A stretch of 33,501 bases of DNA, taken from Acidimicrobiaceae bacterium. GTDB lineage: Bacteria; Actinomycetota; Acidimicrobiia; Acidimicrobiales; Palsa-688. Position numbers and translations under genes: made by a program. This document shows positions 16,750 through 31,926 of this stretch, piece by piece. The DNA is taken from contig PMHU01000149.1 in NCBI GenBank assembly GCA_003156795.1, positions 6,594 through 40,094 on the forward strand, written 5' to 3'. Below the pieces are notes generated by a model. The model searched no databases. It saw nothing but the letters and a program-made list of their open reading frames with translations, and had not been told where the DNA came from. Numbering within the stretch: the stretch's first letter is position 1; each line of letters begins with the position of its first letter.

Positions 16750-17499
16750 GTGATTGGCGAGCGCAACCTGGGCTTCGCGGGTGCTTACAACTTCCGGGAC
16801 TTGGGTGGCTACCCGACTTCCGGAGGAGCGCGGACCCGATGGGGACGCGTGTTCCGGTCGGACGCCCTCGTGCTCGAGGATCAGGACTTCGACTCGTTTG
16901 CCGGCCTCGGAATACGGGTCGTCTATGACCTTCGCAGCGACGCCGAGCGGGCGACGACGCCCAACCGTCTACCGCCTGGGGGGTACTCGAACGAAGCCAT
17001 CTCGCTCGCTTCCGAGGAAGCAGTTCGCCCCGCTATCGAAGCAGGCATGGACGACGGGGAGGCATTCCTGGCCGGGCTGTATCTGTCGATGCTCGAACGC
17101 TGCCCGTCGGAGATCGGACGAATCCTGACCGGGCTGGCAGATGACTCCAAGCTGCCCGCAGTGTTTCATTGCGCCGCCGGTAAGGACCGCACGGGTCTGG
17201 TGGCCGCGGTCTTGCTGTCTCTACTAGGTGTTGCTGAAGACGCCGTGCTCGACGACTACCAGCTCACGTCGCTGTACCGGACGCCTGAGATGGTCGCGTC
17301 CTCCCTGGACCGGTTGAGCTCGGACTCCAACATCGGTGCCGAAGCGATTGCGGGCATCCTGCGGGCTCCGCGGTGGACCATGCAGTCCGCTTTGGGCGAG
17401 ATCTCCCGAAGATACGGAGGGATCGTCGGATACGCGACAGGTCCGGCCCAAGTCGATCCTCACGTCATCGAACGGCTGCGCGAGCAGCTGCTCGAGTAA
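16750..17499 (+). CDS. PtpB-like tyrosine-protein phosphatase
   Basis: NFRDLGGYPTSGGARTRWGRVFRSDAL...VFHCAAGKDRTGLVAAVLLSLLGV; signature HCxxGKDRTG. Confidence 0.92.
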   Translation: MIGERNLGFAGAYNFRDLGGYPTSGGARTRWGRVFRSDALVLEDQDFDSFAGLGIRVVYDLRSDAERATTPNRLPPGGYSNEAISLASEEAVRPAIEAGMDDGEAFLAGLYLSMLERCPSEIGRILTGLADDSKLPAVFHCAAGKDRTGLVAAVLLSLLGVAEDAVLDDYQLTSLYRTPEMVASSLDRLSSDSNIGAEAIAGILRAPRWTMQSALGEISRRYGGIVGYATGPAQVDPHVIERLREQLLE

Positions 17500-24479: not shown

Positions 24480-25700
24480 TCAGCCCCATCGGATCGGCAT
24501 GTGTTTGATGCCGGCTACGAAGTTCGAACGCAGCATCTCCACTTCGCCATCGAACCGGGCGTCGGGCATCCGGGTAACGAGCTCGGTGAAGATGAGCCGG
24601 AGCTCGAGGCGAGCCAGGTTCGCGCCTAGACAGAAGTGGGGACCCCCGCCCCCGAAGGCGACGTGATCGTTGGGAGTTCGATCCACATCGAACATGAAAG
24701 GATCGGGGAAGGCCTCGGCGTCTCGGTTCGCCGACGCGTACCAAAGGACCACCCGATCGCCCTGCCTGATCGTCTTACCTCGAAGTTCGATGTCCATGGC
24801 CGCGGTTCGACGGAAGTAGTGGATCGGTGAGGACCACCGGAGGATCTCCTCGACGGCACGTTCGATTCGCGCCGCGCTCGGATCCTCTCTCAACTTCTGC
24901 ATTTGGTCGGGGCTCTCGATAAGTGCCCGCATCCCGTGGGCGGTCGCGTTACGAGTCGTCTCGTTTCCGGCCACGACGAGAAGCAGGAAGAACATTCCGA
25001 ACTCGGCCTCCGTCAACCCCTCGCCTTCATCCAGCGTGGTGTTCGTCAGCTTGGTGATGATGTCGTCGCGAGGATTCAGCTCCCGGTCCTGCCTCAGTCC
25101 ATCGGCGTACGAAATCATCTCGGCTGATACGAGCATCCCGTGTTCGAGGTCCCCTTCGTATTCCGGGTCGTCTATGCCGGTCAGCTGGTTGCTCCACGCG
25201 AAGACCCTCTTTCGGTCCTCGTCGGGGACGCCGACCAATTCAGCGATAGCTTGGAGCGGGAGCTCGGCTGCGACGTCTTCGACGAAATCACACGAGCCCC
25301 GTTCGACCACGTTGTCCAAGACCGTCTTGGCTTTGAGAGCGAGGTGACCTTCCAGAAGGCGCAACGTCCTGGGTGTGAATCCCCGGTTGACGATCCGCCG
25401 GTAGCGCGTGTGCTGAGGAGGGTCCATTCCAGGAAGCATTTCCCTCATGGCGGCACCTTGAAGATCGTCCGGGTCGATGTCGATGAGCGTGAAGCCTTCT
25501 GACACGATGAAGCGTTTGGCATCCCGGTTGGCCATTTGCACGTCAGCGTGCTTGGTCAGCGACCAGAAGCCGATCCCATTGCTGTCGACGTGCCAGTGGA
25601 CCGGGTCTTGGTCCCGCAACCGGGCAAAGAAGTCATGGTGCTCCTGGCGCTTGAAGATGTCCGGACCCAGCACGTCCTGGGTATCTACGTCGTCAGTCAT
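24480..25700 (-). CDS. Cytochrome P450 (CYP125/CYP142-like)
   Basis: Heme loop FGGGGPHFCLGANLAR; I-helix VVAGNETTRNATAHGM; MDPPQHTRYRRIVNRGFTPR; LRSNFVAGIKHMPIRW. Confidence 0.95.
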   Translation of the reverse strand: MTDDVDTQDVLGPDIFKRQEHHDFFARLRDQDPVHWHVDSNGIGFWSLTKHADVQMANRDAKRFIVSEGFTLIDIDPDDLQGAAMREMLPGMDPPQHTRYRRIVNRGFTPRTLRLLEGHLALKAKTVLDNVVERGSCDFVEDVAAELPLQAIAELVGVPDEDRKRVFAWSNQLTGIDDPEYEGDLEHGMLVSAEMISYADGLRQDRELNPRDDIITKLTNTTLDEGEGLTEAEFGMFFLLLVVAGNETTRNATAHGMRALIESPDQMQKLREDPSAARIERAVEEILRWSSPIHYFRRTAAMDIELRGKTIRQGDRVVLWYASANRDAEAFPDPFMFDVDRTPNDHVAFGGGGPHFCLGANLARLELRLIFTELVTRMPDARFDGEVEMLRSNFVAGIKHMPIRWG

Positions 25701-25743
25701 GGGCACCTCTCGGGTCTCGTTGGGTTACTTGTCGGTTGCATGT

Positions 25744-28146
25744 TCAGCTGCTCGGCTTCCAGCCGGCCGGCCGGTCGCCTATCACGCCAGATTGGCGGAG
25801 ACCATCCAACTGGGCATCGTCGAGGGAGAGGATCCCCGAGAGGATCTCACGATTGTGCTCCCCAAGCATGGGGGCCGGATGCGTGAACCACGGACCGGAG
25901 TGGCCCGAGAACCGAACGGGGACACCATGGATCTCCATGTCGCCGATGACTGAATGGTGGACCGCCTCGACGAACCCTCGGGCCCGGAGGTGAGGGTCAT
26001 CCAGTACGAAGGGAGGACCGACCACCGGCGCGACTGCGATGTCCGCGGCCGCCAGTTCTGTTGCCAGCTCGTCGATTTCCCTGGTGGAGCAGTACTGCTT
26101 GATCCTTCGGTCGAGCTCATCTGCTTCGGCCCGGCGGCCGTCGACGCTGTCGAAGCGAGGATCGGTCGCCCAGTCGGGATCGCCTACGGCTAGTTTGAAC
26201 CCTTGCCACTGACCATCATCCTCTATGGCGATGGCCAGCCAGCGCTCCTTGGCCGAGCACTCGTAGACTCCTTGCGGAGCCGCCATCGGCCCTCGATTGC
26301 CTACCCGCCCGATGGACGCTCCATAGGCGGAGTGCTCGATCACGACCTCGGCCGCGATATTGAGCGCAGCGTCGATCATGGTCACTTCTATGTGACGCCC
26401 GACCCCGGAAAGGTCTCTCTCGCGGAGGGCTGCGAGAAATGCCACGACGCCGTGCATGCCGGCCACGGGATCGCACGGCCCGCGAGGGATTACTGGAAGG
26501 CTGTCCGGGAACCCCGACATCCATGCCATCCCGCTCAGCTGCTCCATCGTCTGAGCGAAGCCGGTTCGATCCCTCCATGGCCCTGAAAGGCCGAAGCCAG
26601 GCATCCGCATCATGATGGCCCGCGGGTTGGCCGCGGAGACCGCCTCCCAGGTGATACCCATTGAGTCGAGGACACGCGGCGAGAAGTTCTCGACCAGGGC
26701 GTCAGAGCGGGCGACCAGGTCGAACAGGAGGCGGCGCCCTTCGTCGCATCCGAGGTCGAGGGTGACGGCCCGCTTGTTGGTGTTGACCGATTGGTAGTAC
26801 GGGCTCCATTCCCACCAACCATCCTCGATCGGTTTCTTGGTGGAGCTGAAGCGCATACCGTCGGGCCTTTGGATCGACTCGACCTTGATCACCTCGGCTC
26901 CGAGGACCGCCATGATCTGGGTTGCCGATGGGCCGGCCCAAAAGGCTGTCAGGTCGACGATCCTCAGCCCGCTGAGCGGCTTTCCGGGCACGTTGGAGCG
27001 TCGGGGCTTACCAAGCTCCAGCTCTCGCGGAGTAGGCGCGTGCGCCCGTGGCGTCCAAGCGGCGCCATTGTGCTGACCCAAGGCCGGCGAAGCTCCGAAG
27101 GGGTGGGGTGCGGCGCCGGACACTCTGTAAGGAACGTTCGGCTGAAGGAAGGCACCCGAGGGATTCAAGACGTGACTCCGACGCTCCTTGAGATGATCGA
27201 ACTCCGTGATGGTCTCCGGCCGCCCCACGTCGGCTACCGGTATTCGATACGCAACGGCGAGCTCGACGATGTCTGCCGTGGTGTGCCGGGTGGTCCAGGC
27301 ACCCACTATCTGGCTGAACTCGTCCCTATGGTTGATCCGTCGAGCGGCCGTGGCATAGCGATCATCGCCGCGGAGGTCCGGGCGTTCGATCATGAGCAGG
27401 AAGTCCTCGAACTGCTGCCCGGTTCCTGTGCAAAAGCCGACCAAGCCGTCAGAGGTCGGCTCGACGCACGGAGCTTCGAGGCTGCGGAAGGGCCCAGCGA
27501 AGCCACTCAATGAGTCCCGCAGACCGGAGAGCGACGAGTAGAGGGAGCCGAATCCTCCCAAAGTCGGAGCCATGCATTCCAGGAAGGAGATGTCGGCATG
27601 CTCGGGCCGCCCCAACCTCAAGCTGGCGAGAGCGGCAACCGCGGTGTACGTGCCGGCGATCCACTCGCCGATGCGCCCGCCCGCGTGCAGAGGCTCGCGG
27701 TCGGCGCTCCCTCGGCTCGCCGTGGATCCGCATCTCGCTTGTAGGGTGAACTCTGTCGCTCTTCGACCGCTGTCAGGTCCACGACGGCCCAGAAGCGTCA
27801 CCGAAATGACCGACGGACCATCCGGTTGTTCGAGGAGTTCCTCGACGTATTCGTCGGGGAGCTGCCCTCCTTCGATGAGCACGTCGGATTCGCTCGCGAG
27901 ACACCGAATCCCAGGGTCGCTCCAACTCCCGATCAGTGACCGCTTGGAAGCGTTGAGGTACTGAAACAGGGCGCTGTCACGCGTTCCGAGCTCGGCTCCG
28001 GATGCGGTCCAGTGCCTCATCGGGTCCCCTTCGGGCGACTCCACCTTGATGACGTCGGCGCCGGCGTCGGCCATCAGCTTGGTGGCGTAGGGCCCCGCGA
28101 TTTGTTCGCTGAAGTCGAGTACCCGAATTCCTGCCAAGAGGGTCAT
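25744..28146 (-). CDS. Fused double-domain CaiB/BaiF (family III) CoA-transferase
   Basis: 800 aa with two CaiB-type starts: GIRVLDFSEQIAGPYATKLMADAGADVIKVESPEGD and GLRIVDLTAFWAGPSATQIMAVLGAEVIKVESIQRPDG; second half has GPCDPVAGMHGVVAFLAAL. Confidence 0.93.
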   Translation of the reverse strand: MTLLAGIRVLDFSEQIAGPYATKLMADAGADVIKVESPEGDPMRHWTASGAELGTRDSALFQYLNASKRSLIGSWSDPGIRCLASESDVLIEGGQLPDEYVEELLEQPDGPSVISVTLLGRRGPDSGRRATEFTLQARCGSTASRGSADREPLHAGGRIGEWIAGTYTAVAALASLRLGRPEHADISFLECMAPTLGGFGSLYSSLSGLRDSLSGFAGPFRSLEAPCVEPTSDGLVGFCTGTGQQFEDFLLMIERPDLRGDDRYATAARRINHRDEFSQIVGAWTTRHTTADIVELAVAYRIPVADVGRPETITEFDHLKERRSHVLNPSGAFLQPNVPYRVSGAAPHPFGASPALGQHNGAAWTPRAHAPTPRELELGKPRRSNVPGKPLSGLRIVDLTAFWAGPSATQIMAVLGAEVIKVESIQRPDGMRFSSTKKPIEDGWWEWSPYYQSVNTNKRAVTLDLGCDEGRRLLFDLVARSDALVENFSPRVLDSMGITWEAVSAANPRAIMMRMPGFGLSGPWRDRTGFAQTMEQLSGMAWMSGFPDSLPVIPRGPCDPVAGMHGVVAFLAALRERDLSGVGRHIEVTMIDAALNIAAEVVIEHSAYGASIGRVGNRGPMAAPQGVYECSAKERWLAIAIEDDGQWQGFKLAVGDPDWATDPRFDSVDGRRAEADELDRRIKQYCSTREIDELATELAAADIAVAPVVGPPFVLDDPHLRARGFVEAVHHSVIGDMEIHGVPVRFSGHSGPWFTHPAPMLGEHNREILSGILSLDDAQLDGLRQSGVIGDRPAGWKPSS

Positions 28147-28219: not shown

Positions 28220-29527
28220 TCACTTCGTAGCGACGCCCGCCCGACCCGGGCGGCTAGCCAGCAGCTGCCTGGCCATCACCTGCGCGAAGTCGACATCACC
28301 GGCCTCCTTCCCGACTCGCGTGACGACGTCGACCTCCGGTGACTCGCTTCGGAGGTGGCCGGCCGTGCACGTTTCTTTCGGGCGGGTGGCGAAGGGGTCG
28401 AAGTGGTAATTCCGCATCGCGTTCCGGTGCGAGATCTTGGCGATCTGCTCGTCGTCAAGGCGGCTGGACACCGCAGAGAACAGCTCCGGCGCGTTTGGCC
28501 ACGTGCCATCGGAGTGCGGAAAGTCGGATTCCCAAAAGACGTTGTCGATATTGAAATGCGAAATGAGCTCGATGCCTATCGGCTCGTTGATGAAACAGCA
28601 GAGGATGTGGTCGTGGAACACTTGAGTCGGACTTCCTCCGTTGGCGAACTCGTGCTTGCTCCAGCCAGAGTGTCTTTCCTGGACGTGTTCCGCCCTCCAT
28701 GCGAAGTAGGGCATCCATCCGATGTCCCCTTCTGTGAGCGAGAACTTCAGTGAGGGGTAGCGCTCCCAGAAGTTAGCCCAGATCAGCTCCCCGAAGGTGA
28801 AAGCCGTCGTGCAGCCGGCGAGGGTGAAGATCACGCTCGCCGGGGCGTCCTTGGAGATCTGCATCGGTCGCGAGCTGGACCCGAGGTGGCAGCACAGGGT
28901 CACGTCCTCGTCACAGGCAGCCTCGAAAAGCGGGTTCCAATAGCCCGAATGGATCGTCGGCATGTTGAGCGCCTCGGGGTTCTCGGAGAAGGCGACTGCG
29001 TGGCAACCCTTGGCGGCCAGCCGCCGGATCTCTCGTGCTGCCCTGTCCACGTCGAACAGCGGCAGGATCCCACACGGTATGAACCGCTCGGGATATGCCG
29101 CACACCACTCATCGATGTGCCAGTCGTTGTAGGCCTGAATCATTATTTCGTTGACGTCTTGATCGGGACCTTGATTGAGGACCTGTCCGGAGAATCCGGT
29201 CCAGTTCGGAAAGTTGAGGCCAGCGAGCTGGCCGCCCGCGTTCATGTCTTTCACACGCTCGTGAACGTCGTAGCAGCCGGGTCGCATCTCGTCGTAGCGC
29301 GACGCGTCGAGGTTGAAGTACTCCCGTGGCTTTCCGGCCACAGCGTTCAATCCGAGGTTGCGGCCAGGCAGATCGCCGTACCACCACTGCTCCCGCCCGT
29401 TTTCGTCTTCGAGCACGCGAGGCGCTTGGTCGAGGTACTTGGTCGGTACATGGCGCTCGAACATGTCGGCGGGTTCGCAGATGTGGTCGTCGACGCTGAC
29501 GAGTATGAGGTCCTCGGGTTTGATCAT
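28220..29527 (-). CDS. Amidohydrolase (PF04909-type TIM barrel), paralogue 2
   Basis: DLILVSVDDHICEPADMFERHVPTKY, VTLCCHLGSSS, WESDFPHSDGTWP; clear paralogue of 21373-22644. Confidence 0.92.
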   Translation of the reverse strand: MIKPEDLILVSVDDHICEPADMFERHVPTKYLDQAPRVLEDENGREQWWYGDLPGRNLGLNAVAGKPREYFNLDASRYDEMRPGCYDVHERVKDMNAGGQLAGLNFPNWTGFSGQVLNQGPDQDVNEIMIQAYNDWHIDEWCAAYPERFIPCGILPLFDVDRAAREIRRLAAKGCHAVAFSENPEALNMPTIHSGYWNPLFEAACDEDVTLCCHLGSSSRPMQISKDAPASVIFTLAGCTTAFTFGELIWANFWERYPSLKFSLTEGDIGWMPYFAWRAEHVQERHSGWSKHEFANGGSPTQVFHDHILCCFINEPIGIELISHFNIDNVFWESDFPHSDGTWPNAPELFSAVSSRLDDEQIAKISHRNAMRNYHFDPFATRPKETCTAGHLRSESPEVDVVTRVGKEAGDVDFAQVMARQLLASRPGRAGVATK

Positions 29528-29605
29528 TCGGTCCTCCCCTGAACTCCGCCCGTGATCCGCCGGGTGCCATCACAAGTTCGGCGTTAGGGCCAGGCATTGA
29601 ACATC

Positions 29606-29633
29606 TTGACGGTTAGTGTCTACATCGTAATAC
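29606..29633 (+). promoter_or_regulatory. Candidate promoter TTGACG-N16-TAATAC upstream of the thiolase-fold gene
   Basis: TTGACG at 29606-29611, TAATAC at 29628-29633, in the 29528-29673 divergent gap. Confidence 0.45.
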
Positions 29634-29691
29634 TGGCGCTGCCAGCCACGCAATCCCCGCGGAAGCTCCCCGGGTGCCAAAAAGGAGGGTC

Positions 29692-30861
29692 ATGGGGCAC
29701 CCCTACCAGAACGTCGCCATTGCGGCCGGATTCAATACCAAGCAGGCCAGGGTGCTCGAAGGTCACACCTCGCTGAGCATCGCCATCGAGGCCGCGCTGG
29801 GCGTCATGGAGTCGGCCGGCTTGACTCCGGCGGACGTCGACGGAGTCTTCGGGGAGTTCGCCATGGATCTGACCTACTCGCTGGGGATGGGTCCGGTCTA
29901 CGCGTCCTCACCAGGGATTGGGGGCATCCCGGCCATATTGGACGCGGCCAACGCCATCGCCGCGGGGCATTGTAAAACCGTCCTCCTGGCTGGGGGCGGG
30001 GCGGGCATCTACACCGATCGATCGGCCGTGGCGCCCTGGACCCGGGTGTCTCACGAATTCGTGTTGCCATTCGGAATGTTCACGGCGCTCGAGTTCGCGT
30101 TCATCGCCAGACGCCACATGACGATGTTCGGGACGACACCGGAGCAGATGGCCCAAGCGGCGGCGACCATCCGCAACAACGGCCACGTCAATCCTGAGGC
30201 CGTCTTCTACGGCCGCGGCCCCTTCACCGCGGCCGACATCCTGAGCTCGCGCATGGTCGCCGACCCGTTTCATCTTCTCGATTGCTCTATGACCGCTGAA
30301 GGCGGCTGCGCGCTAGTACTGACGACTGCTGACCGGGCAGCCGATCTGAAGCTCCCCCCGGTTTACATCCACGGCGGCGGTGTCGACCACAATGGACCTT
30401 CATACCAGTTCCCCCCCAGCTTCGACCTGAGGGGCGCGTCTCCCGACAGCCCCCCCAACGGCTACGTGGGTCGGCGGGCGGCCATGCGGAGCTTCGCCAT
30501 GGCCGGCGTACAGCCGTCGGACGTCGACGTGTGCGAGCTGTACGACCCTTTCTCCTTTGAAATCATTCGACAGGTGGAGGCCTTCGGCTTCTGTGAGCCG
30601 GGAGAAGGCGGGGAGTTTGTTACCAATGGCCCCATGGGCCCGGGCGGCGCCCTGCCACTGACGACAGACGGTGGACTCATGTCCTTCAGCCATGGAGGCG
30701 GGACGGTGCAGCTCTTGCAGCGGGTGATCCGGGCTACGCACCAGATCCAAGGCCTATGCCAGACCACCCAGGTACCGAACGTTGACCTGGCGCTCTGCTC
30801 GAATGGGGGAGCCGGAGCGTTGTTCAACGACGTGATGATCCTCGGGAGGACGAGGCCGTGA
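29692..30861 (+). CDS. Thiolase-fold / lipid-transfer-protein-like enzyme (possible aldolase)
   Basis: IAAGHCKTVLLAGGGAG, GLMSFSHGGGTVQLLQRVIRATHQIQG, LALCSNGGAGA; paired with a DUF35 gene. Start 29674 (GTG) or 29692 (ATG). Confidence 0.88.
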   Translation: MGHPYQNVAIAAGFNTKQARVLEGHTSLSIAIEAALGVMESAGLTPADVDGVFGEFAMDLTYSLGMGPVYASSPGIGGIPAILDAANAIAAGHCKTVLLAGGGAGIYTDRSAVAPWTRVSHEFVLPFGMFTALEFAFIARRHMTMFGTTPEQMAQAAATIRNNGHVNPEAVFYGRGPFTAADILSSRMVADPFHLLDCSMTAEGGCALVLTTADRAADLKLPPVYIHGGGVDHNGPSYQFPPSFDLRGASPDSPPNGYVGRRAAMRSFAMAGVQPSDVDVCELYDPFSFEIIRQVEAFGFCEPGEGGEFVTNGPMGPGGALPLTTDGGLMSFSHGGGTVQLLQRVIRATHQIQGLCQTTQVPNVDLALCSNGGAGALFNDVMILGRTRP

Positions 30862-31304
30862 CCGCACTCGAACCTCAACGCTCAGGCGAGATTCGGATTC
30901 CCAGGGCGTCGCCTATCTCACAGCCGTTCTGGGAGGGATGCGATCGCGGGGTCCTCCCCTACCAGCGGTGCGACAGCTGCAGTAAAGCGAACTTCAATCC
31001 GGTGTACATATGCCGGTTCTGCACGTCCAAGTCCCTGTCCTGGCATGAAAGCGCCGGGCTTGGCACCATTTACAGCTGGACCATCGCGTGGCGACCTCAG
31101 TTCCCTTCCTTCGCGACCCCGTACGCCCCCATCATCGTGGACTTGGACGAGGGCTACCAGATGATAAGCAACCTGGTGGGTTGTGATACGGAGGAAGTCC
31201 ACGTCGGAATGAGGATTTCCACGTGCTTCCACCGAGTTGCGGACCGTACCCTTCCCTACTTCACCCCCTTGGAAATCAGCCGCGGAGTGATGTTCGGTGA
31301 ATGA
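30858..31304 (+). CDS. Zn-ribbon / OB-fold DUF35 protein, partner of thiolase-fold enzyme
   Basis: FWEGCDRGVLPYQRCDSCSKANFNPVYICRFCTSKSLSWHESAGLGTIYSWTI: rubredoxin-like CxxC...CxxC ribbon plus OB fold. 4-nt overlap with the upstream gene. Confidence 0.92.
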   Translation: MTALEPQRSGEIRIPRASPISQPFWEGCDRGVLPYQRCDSCSKANFNPVYICRFCTSKSLSWHESAGLGTIYSWTIAWRPQFPSFATPYAPIIVDLDEGYQMISNLVGCDTEEVHVGMRISTCFHRVADRTLPYFTPLEISRGVMFGE

Positions 31305-31926
31305 GCTCGGGTTCGACCCATCGGGATCGACGGCTCGATCCACTCGCGACGTCATCATTCAAGCGGCATGGGAGTGCTTCAGGCAGTTCGGTCCACGCAA
31401 GACCACTATTGCCGACATCAGCCGGACAGCGAATCTGTCACGCGGAACCGTCTACCTGTACTTCAAGGACAAGTCCGCGATATTGCAAGCGACCGCGGAA
31501 AACGCGTCCAAGAGCTTCTACGCCGCTCTTGCAGATTCCATGCGCGGCCTCGTCTCTCTCGAGGAGCAGTTTGCCTCCGCGGCAGTATTCGTCTGCCGTT
31601 CCAAGCAGCAGCTCAGACACTGGGAGAAGCTTTTCGACGCCGAGGCGGTAGCCGTCCTGTTGACCTCGGACGGCGTCCTCTTGCGTGAGTGCGTGGAGTT
31701 CTTGAGCCCATATATCGAGTCGGCAACCGCGACAGGAGAGGTGCGGGCCGATCTCGACGTGGGATCCGCCGCCGAGTGGTTCGCTCGAATTCTCTTCTCG
31801 CTATACAGCACACCATCACCTCTCCTCGATCTCGATGACCCCGCGACCGTCAAGCGGTTTGTCGAGAGCCATGTAATCGCGGGGTTTGCGCCGCGACGTC
31901 AGACGCTCAGCCGAGCAAATCGATAA
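31297..31926 (+). CDS. TetR/AcrR-family transcriptional regulator
   Basis: STRDVIIQAAWECFRQFGPRKTTIADISRTANLSRGTVYLYFKDKSAIL HTH motif. Confidence 0.94.
   Translation: MNELGFDPSGSTARSTRDVIIQAAWECFRQFGPRKTTIADISRTANLSRGTVYLYFKDKSAILQATAENASKSFYAALADSMRGLVSLEEQFASAAVFVCRSKQQLRHWEKLFDAEAVAVLLTSDGVLLRECVEFLSPYIESATATGEVRADLDVGSAAEWFARILFSLYSTPSPLLDLDDPATVKRFVESHVIAGFAPRRQTLSRANR

Follow-up and report, generated by a model that had tools for sequence, protein, structure and literature searches.

A pair of overlapping genes in the window, the whole stretch of 33,501 nucleotides that was analysed, probably encodes a heteromeric acyl-CoA retro-aldolase that would use Tyr284 and His334, a reading to which we assign a probability of roughly 0.68 on the basis of sequence comparisons. 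The pair consists of a thiolase-fold gene (its product is hereafter the query) and a DUF35 gene, and is located among the following genes.

24480..25706, minus strand: cytochrome P450 (Pfam)
25744..28146, minus strand: two-domain class III CoA-transferase, 800 aa, likely CoA activation step (Pfam; neighbour comparison)
28220..29527, minus strand: Amidohydro_2 protein, divergent from the thiolase-fold/DUF35 pair (Pfam; at eight orthologue loci a 59-65% homologue lies close to the pair)
29692..30861, plus strand: SCP2-thiolase-fold protein without nucleophilic Cys, 389 aa, probable acyl-CoA retro-aldolase catalytic subunit (PDB sequence matches; 28-member clade)
30858..31304, plus strand: stand-alone DUF35 protein (zf-ChsH2 zinc ribbon and OB fold), 148 aa, presumed obligate partner subunit (Pfam; PDB matches; adjacency in 27/27 loci)
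31297..31926, plus strand: TetR-family regulator, 8-nt overlap with the DUF35 gene, probable operon regulator (Pfam; compare kstR3 of the atf1-chsH4 operon, PMC10398937)
32010..32798, plus strand: enoyl-CoA hydratase family protein (Pfam/NCBIfam match)

The start of the thiolase-fold gene was placed at the ATG at 29692, and its orthologues begin at MxxHP; an alternative GTG at 29674 sits 5' of a GGAGGG Shine-Dalgarno sequence. The other annotated genes of the window include those for CoA ligases, an acyl-CoA dehydrogenase, enoyl-CoA hydratases and SDRs. A search of 29500-29720 for a TetR operator palindrome turned up no strong candidate. A tyrosine phosphatase gene lies beside acyl-CoA ligase genes in the window (16750-17499, Y_phosphatase3) and again in a Rhodococcus plasmid catabolic cluster (L040, 12681-13412).

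The query matched only Thiolase_C_1 in Pfam, with no Thiolase_N match, and its best NCBIfam match, PRK06158 (NF004811), scored 223 bits against a cut-off of 421. The thiolase fold was assigned from near full-length sequence alignment to solved thiolase-fold chains, of which the best matches were the unnamed thiolase 4u4e (5e-54), TcLtp2 (6ok1, 1e-42) and CtSal (9myr, 1e-38). An AlphaFold2 model built from a three-row alignment (query, L018 and L048) had a pLDDT of 35.7, too low for use in a fold search. The residues and motifs considered below were as follows.

29905..29934, plus strand: remodelled elbow SSPGIGGIPA, residues 72-81, no Cys (alignments; loop lengths counted by hand)
30541..30552, plus strand: YDPF motif, Tyr284-Phe287, in 28/28 orthologues; the Tyr corresponds to Tyr294 of TcLtp2, Tyr302 of CtSal and the HDCF His of SCP2 thiolases (PMC12329534)
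30691..30693, plus strand: His334 in SFSHGGG, at the thiolase GHP-His position and that of Tyr344 of TcLtp2 and Gln352 of CtSal; His in 28/28 orthologues
30796..30798, plus strand: Cys369 in LCSNGGAGA, resembling the acid/base Cys of thiolase CxGGGxG; Cys in 25/28 orthologues, Ala or Ser in three
30969..31022, plus strand: zinc ribbon C38-x2-C41-x10-C52-x2-C55 of the DUF35 protein

The nucleophile Cys that SCP2-type thiolases carry at a helix N-terminus (CxSG) was absent from the elbow of all 28 distinct orthologues, the query included and the other 27 being 54-66% identical to it, while the same alignment placed a Cys there in the positive controls 7yvy, L010, L011, L013 and L016, the last four being Cys-bearing paralogues from the query's own genome. 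In an independent profile alignment the Cys column held Gly in 4u4e, TcLtp2 and CtSal, and Cys in 7yvy and 6esq. Gly also replaces the thiolase Cys in the aldolases compared by Rolfe et al. 2025 (PMC12329534). Anchoring without gaps on AAGHC put Gly75 (29914-29916) at the Cys position, whereas MAFFT turned the Cys column into a 3-residue gap beside Gly77/Gly78; the position would correspond either to Gly75 or to a deletion, and no Cys lies within about 10 residues under either alignment. The original prediction of a thiolase fold without the nucleophilic Cys was thus borne out, no Cys falling at that position when the query was aligned by sequence or profile with Ltp2, Sal and thiolases. Its elbow motif is present, although 6 nt away from the predicted location of about 29911-29940, and its assignment of Gly to the Cys position holds for the ungapped anchoring but not for MAFFT. 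The predicted retention of HGGG (residues 334-337) and LCSNGGAGA (from residue 368, LCSNGG being 368-373) was confirmed.

Counted by hand on the aligned sequences, the elbows of 4u4e and 7yvy exceed that of the query by 3 residues and those of most orthologues by about 4. The sister clade, with mostly YD[I/V]N motifs, has a short elbow too, so that this feature marks a 39-row branch and sets it apart from Ltp2, Sal, IpfD and 4u4e.

The predicted gene order, a Zn-ribbon/OB DUF35 gene overlapping the thiolase-fold gene by 4 nt, agreed with the open reading frames, with Pfam (zf-ChsH2 and OB_ChsH2_C) and with the C4 motif, which is of the TcChsH2 type and not the C3H1 type of CtShy. The closest solved DUF35 chains were CtShy-DUF35 (9myr_B, 4e-18) and TcChsH2-DUF35 (6ok1_B, 4e-17), and by analogy with the 6ok1 and 9myr complexes the protein would clamp onto the thiolase-fold dimer. 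A same-strand DUF35 gene with a C4 ribbon lies directly 3' in 27/27 loci having downstream sequence (26 orthologue loci and the window); together with the 28/28 loss of the elbow Cys, this shows that the pattern is not chance. Orthologues came from the class of the window's own genome and from a second class in that phylum, and included L018 from an Acidimicrobiia MAG; a genome-contig search with the single protein returned one relative and a viral-contig search one partial match. All 11 zf-ChsH2 (DUF35) matches in this genome adjoin thiolase-fold genes, two of them Cys-bearing (L010 and L016).

An IQ-TREE run on 76 rows grouped the 28 orthologue rows in a clade with support of 100/99 whose sister was the YDxN group. 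Both fell within a clade of 69 rows (100/99), together with 4u4e, CtSal, TcLtp2 and IpfD, and Cys thiolases lay outside. Retro-aldolase activity is proven for Ltp2 and Sal, and a retro-aldolase step has been published for IpfDE (PMC12329534, PMC9195938). Since the query is nested in a well-supported Cys-less clade with three published retro-aldolases, the original suggestion of an aldol-lyase rather than a thiolase is the best reading. Two Cys-less paralogues, L012 and L014 (YVPF), were placed on the thiolase side of the tree, so that either the Cys disappeared repeatedly or the root lies elsewhere. L014 and L015 are tandem thiolase-fold genes (C179:8634-10780), at least the first without Cys, an arrangement that may resemble ltp3/ltp4 of sterol degraders.

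The description of the pair as Ltp2-like holds for the shared Cys-less aldolase clade and fails in the strict sense. TcLtp2 and IpfD formed a separate subclade (97/86) without the query, whereas CtSal, for which a partial sequence was used, was on the query's side of the same larger clade (94/87), weakly placed at an open fork. The query is 30.6% identical to TcLtp2, 35% to CtSal and 4u4e and 30% to IpfD. A strict Ltp2 orthologue would remove a C3 side chain from a hydrated steroid CoA ester by means of YDHF and a second Tyr, and the significant TcLtp2 homology (1e-42), the ChsH2-like DUF35 partner with its C4 ribbon and an HsaC/BphC-type extradiol dioxygenase homologue in the genome speak for such a role. 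That homologue is a weak match below the model cut-off and indicates no more than a possible capacity for such chemistry in the genome. The role is nevertheless very improbable given the 31% identity, the other subclade, the YDPF/His pattern in place of YDHF/Tyr344, the elbow 3-4 residues shorter, and the absence of any recognised steroid ring-degradation hallmark among the annotated window genes. Furthermore, a separate gene, L005 on contig C251, has 60% identity to TcLtp2 and falls together with it in the tree (100/99); the window gene is therefore not this genome's Ltp2, and the pair was rejected for that place, which L005 fills.

In favour of the retro-aldolase reading, the catalytic Tyr of Ltp2 and Sal is conserved as Tyr284 in 28/28 orthologues, the DUF35 partner is present in 27/27 loci, and a CoA-transferase or CoA ligase is near in 19/24. 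A beta-hydroxyacyl-CoA would bind in the thiolase pocket where, with no nucleophilic Cys, no acyl-enzyme would form and no thiolysis would follow. As the presumed base, Tyr284 would take the proton off the beta-hydroxyl, the C-alpha/C-beta bond would break, and His334, the presumed acid, would protonate the acyl-CoA enolate, probably with help from Cys369. The products would be acetyl- or propionyl-CoA and an aldehyde or ketone if, as seems probable, the reaction runs in the direction of cleavage. Cys369 is a possible helper acid; its candidacy as an essential catalytic residue was dropped because it is missing in 3/28 orthologues.

The query differs from the characterised enzymes in its proton donors. 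Ltp2 uses Tyr294 of YDHF as base and Tyr344 as acid, and Sal uses Tyr302 as base and Cys304 of YDCY as acid with Gln347/Gln352 (PMC12329534, Rolfe et al. 2025). In the query the Tyr of YDHF is kept and its His replaced by Pro (Pro286), His334 stands in place of Tyr344, and Pro286 and His334 occupy the positions of Cys304 and Gln352 of the Sal/Atf1 pattern. In IpfD of pIBU218 the motif is YDAF and a Tyr stands at position 344. The chemistry may have diverged, as the acids of Ltp2 and Sal are both gone and a change of Sal Cys304 even to His abolished all activity (PMC12329534); the His of that variant would occupy another place than His334. Also counted against the retro-aldolase reading were the position of CtSal at an open fork, the three orthologues without Cys369, the finding of no dedicated MaoC hydratase fused to or constant near the pair, and the presence among the nearest solved relatives of 4u4e, which has no assigned function.

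Neither the HDCF nor the NEAF motif of thiolases is present in the query. The non-nucleophile catalytic residues of classical thiolases are a His and a CxGGG-type Cys, and His334 and Cys369 (25/28) sit where these two are found. For this reason His334/Cys369 might be considered to carry out retro-Claisen hydrolysis on a 3-ketoacyl-CoA or to decarboxylate a malonyl-type CoA, and Cys-less TbSLP slowly decarboxylates malonyl-CoA (PMC12329534). Such a reaction is unlikely, as the query has an aldolase-type Tyr in place of the Asn or His of NEAF/HDCF and Sal was without malonyl-CoA decarboxylase activity (PMC12329534). Less plausible still is a catalytically dead scaffold or acyl-CoA-binding pair, which would fit the lack of the nucleophile and of either known aldolase acid: YDPF and His334 are invariant in the 28 orthologues at 54-66% identity, where drift would be expected in a dead protein, and 27/27 loci, spread over two classes, retain both genes.

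Among known systems, Ltp2-ChsH2(DUF35) of Thermomonospora curvata (6ok1) shares with the query the Cys-less thiolase fold, the YDxF Tyr and a C4 zinc-ribbon DUF35, and differs in YDHF with Tyr344, in subclade and in its longer elbow; ChsH2 has its DUF35 fused to a MaoC-type hydratase domain whereas that of the window stands alone. Sal-Shy(DUF35) of Comamonas testosteroni (9myr) has likewise a Gly for Cys, a Tyr base and a DUF35 partner, but a Cys304 acid and Gln352 instead of Pro and His, and a C3H1 zinc finger. The stand-alone DUF35 is a better match to two other pairs. Atf1-ChsH4 of Mycolicibacterium neoaurum combines an aldolase and a stand-alone DUF35, and their operon also encodes the transcriptional repressor KstR3 (PMC10398937); its shape is similar to that of the thiolase-DUF35-TetR operon of the window. 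In IpfD-IpfE a Cys-less thiolase fold is followed by a stand-alone DUF35 with a CoA ligase nearby, and this retro-aldolase cleaves dihydroxylated ibuprofen-CoA to isobutylcatechol and propionyl-CoA (PMC9195938); unlike the window pair, it is paired with a ring dioxygenase, and IpfE is without the C4 ribbon. Among the relatives of the PRK06158 (NF004811) type, 4u4e and its clade resemble the query in having no Cys and carry YD[SA]F and His, so that an acetyl-CoA acetyltransferase annotation is doubtful there too, although the GGSS elbow of 4u4e is not shortened.

The enzyme kind is already known, while the active-site class, shortened elbow and clade are undescribed in the literature searched. 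The same fold appears to have several proton-donor solutions, and the query's pattern matches no characterised one: YDPF with His334, usually with Cys369, is a predicted third active-site solution, neither that of Ltp2 (YDHF/Tyr) nor that of Sal (YDCY/Gln), and a third strictly conserved pattern for a young enzyme family (Ltp2 2019, Sal 2025). A well-supported clade annotated as thiolase/acetyl-CoA acetyltransferase has no thiolase nucleophile. If the retro-aldolase activity is true, the family would be widened beyond steroids and ibuprofen, a new aldolase would be available for biocatalysis, and thiolase-to-aldolase conversion with different proton donors would become testable.

Neighbour genes at other loci were called with a GC3-based caller and tblastn. 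Within 5 kb of the gene in 24 orthologue loci there was a CoA-transferase or CoA ligase in 19, an Amidohydro_2 gene in 14 and a P450 in eight. The neighbourhood says that a CoA-activated acid is degraded and does not single out a steroid; the substrate would be an acid activated by the CoA-transferase or ligase.

A module of CoA_transf_3, Amidohydro_2, a Cys-less thiolase fold and DUF35 occurred at six loci of this genome (C210, which holds the window, C313, C251, C307, C226 and C19) with different active-site motifs (YDPF+H, YDCF+Y, YENF+Y twice and YDGF+R twice). An Amidohydro_2 gene lay within 3 kb at 6/11 Cys-less loci, where about 0.06 per locus would be expected (P about 1e-5), and in six related genomes 18/78 thiolase-fold genes had one within 3 kb against 3.8 expected; both expectations ignore the general clustering of catabolic genes. 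No description of a DUF35 and amidohydrolase cluster module was found in the searched literature. It is a tentative and rather doubtful idea that the window pair represents one of several copies of a module that strips acyl-CoA side chains from different compounds, in which a metal-dependent amidohydrolase and not a MaoC hydratase would make or consume the beta-hydroxyacyl-CoA, and whose Tyr-His(-Cys) aldolase set is not seen in Ltp2 or Sal. At C307:21340-22717 an Ltp2-like (YENF) gene (L007/L017) is divided between two reading frames and contains an ambiguous base, which probably points to a misassembly or a broken gene. The Cys-less proteins L008 and L009 (C226 and C19) show yet another active-site pattern, with Arg in the place of Tyr344 or the His (YDGF ... 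AGR).
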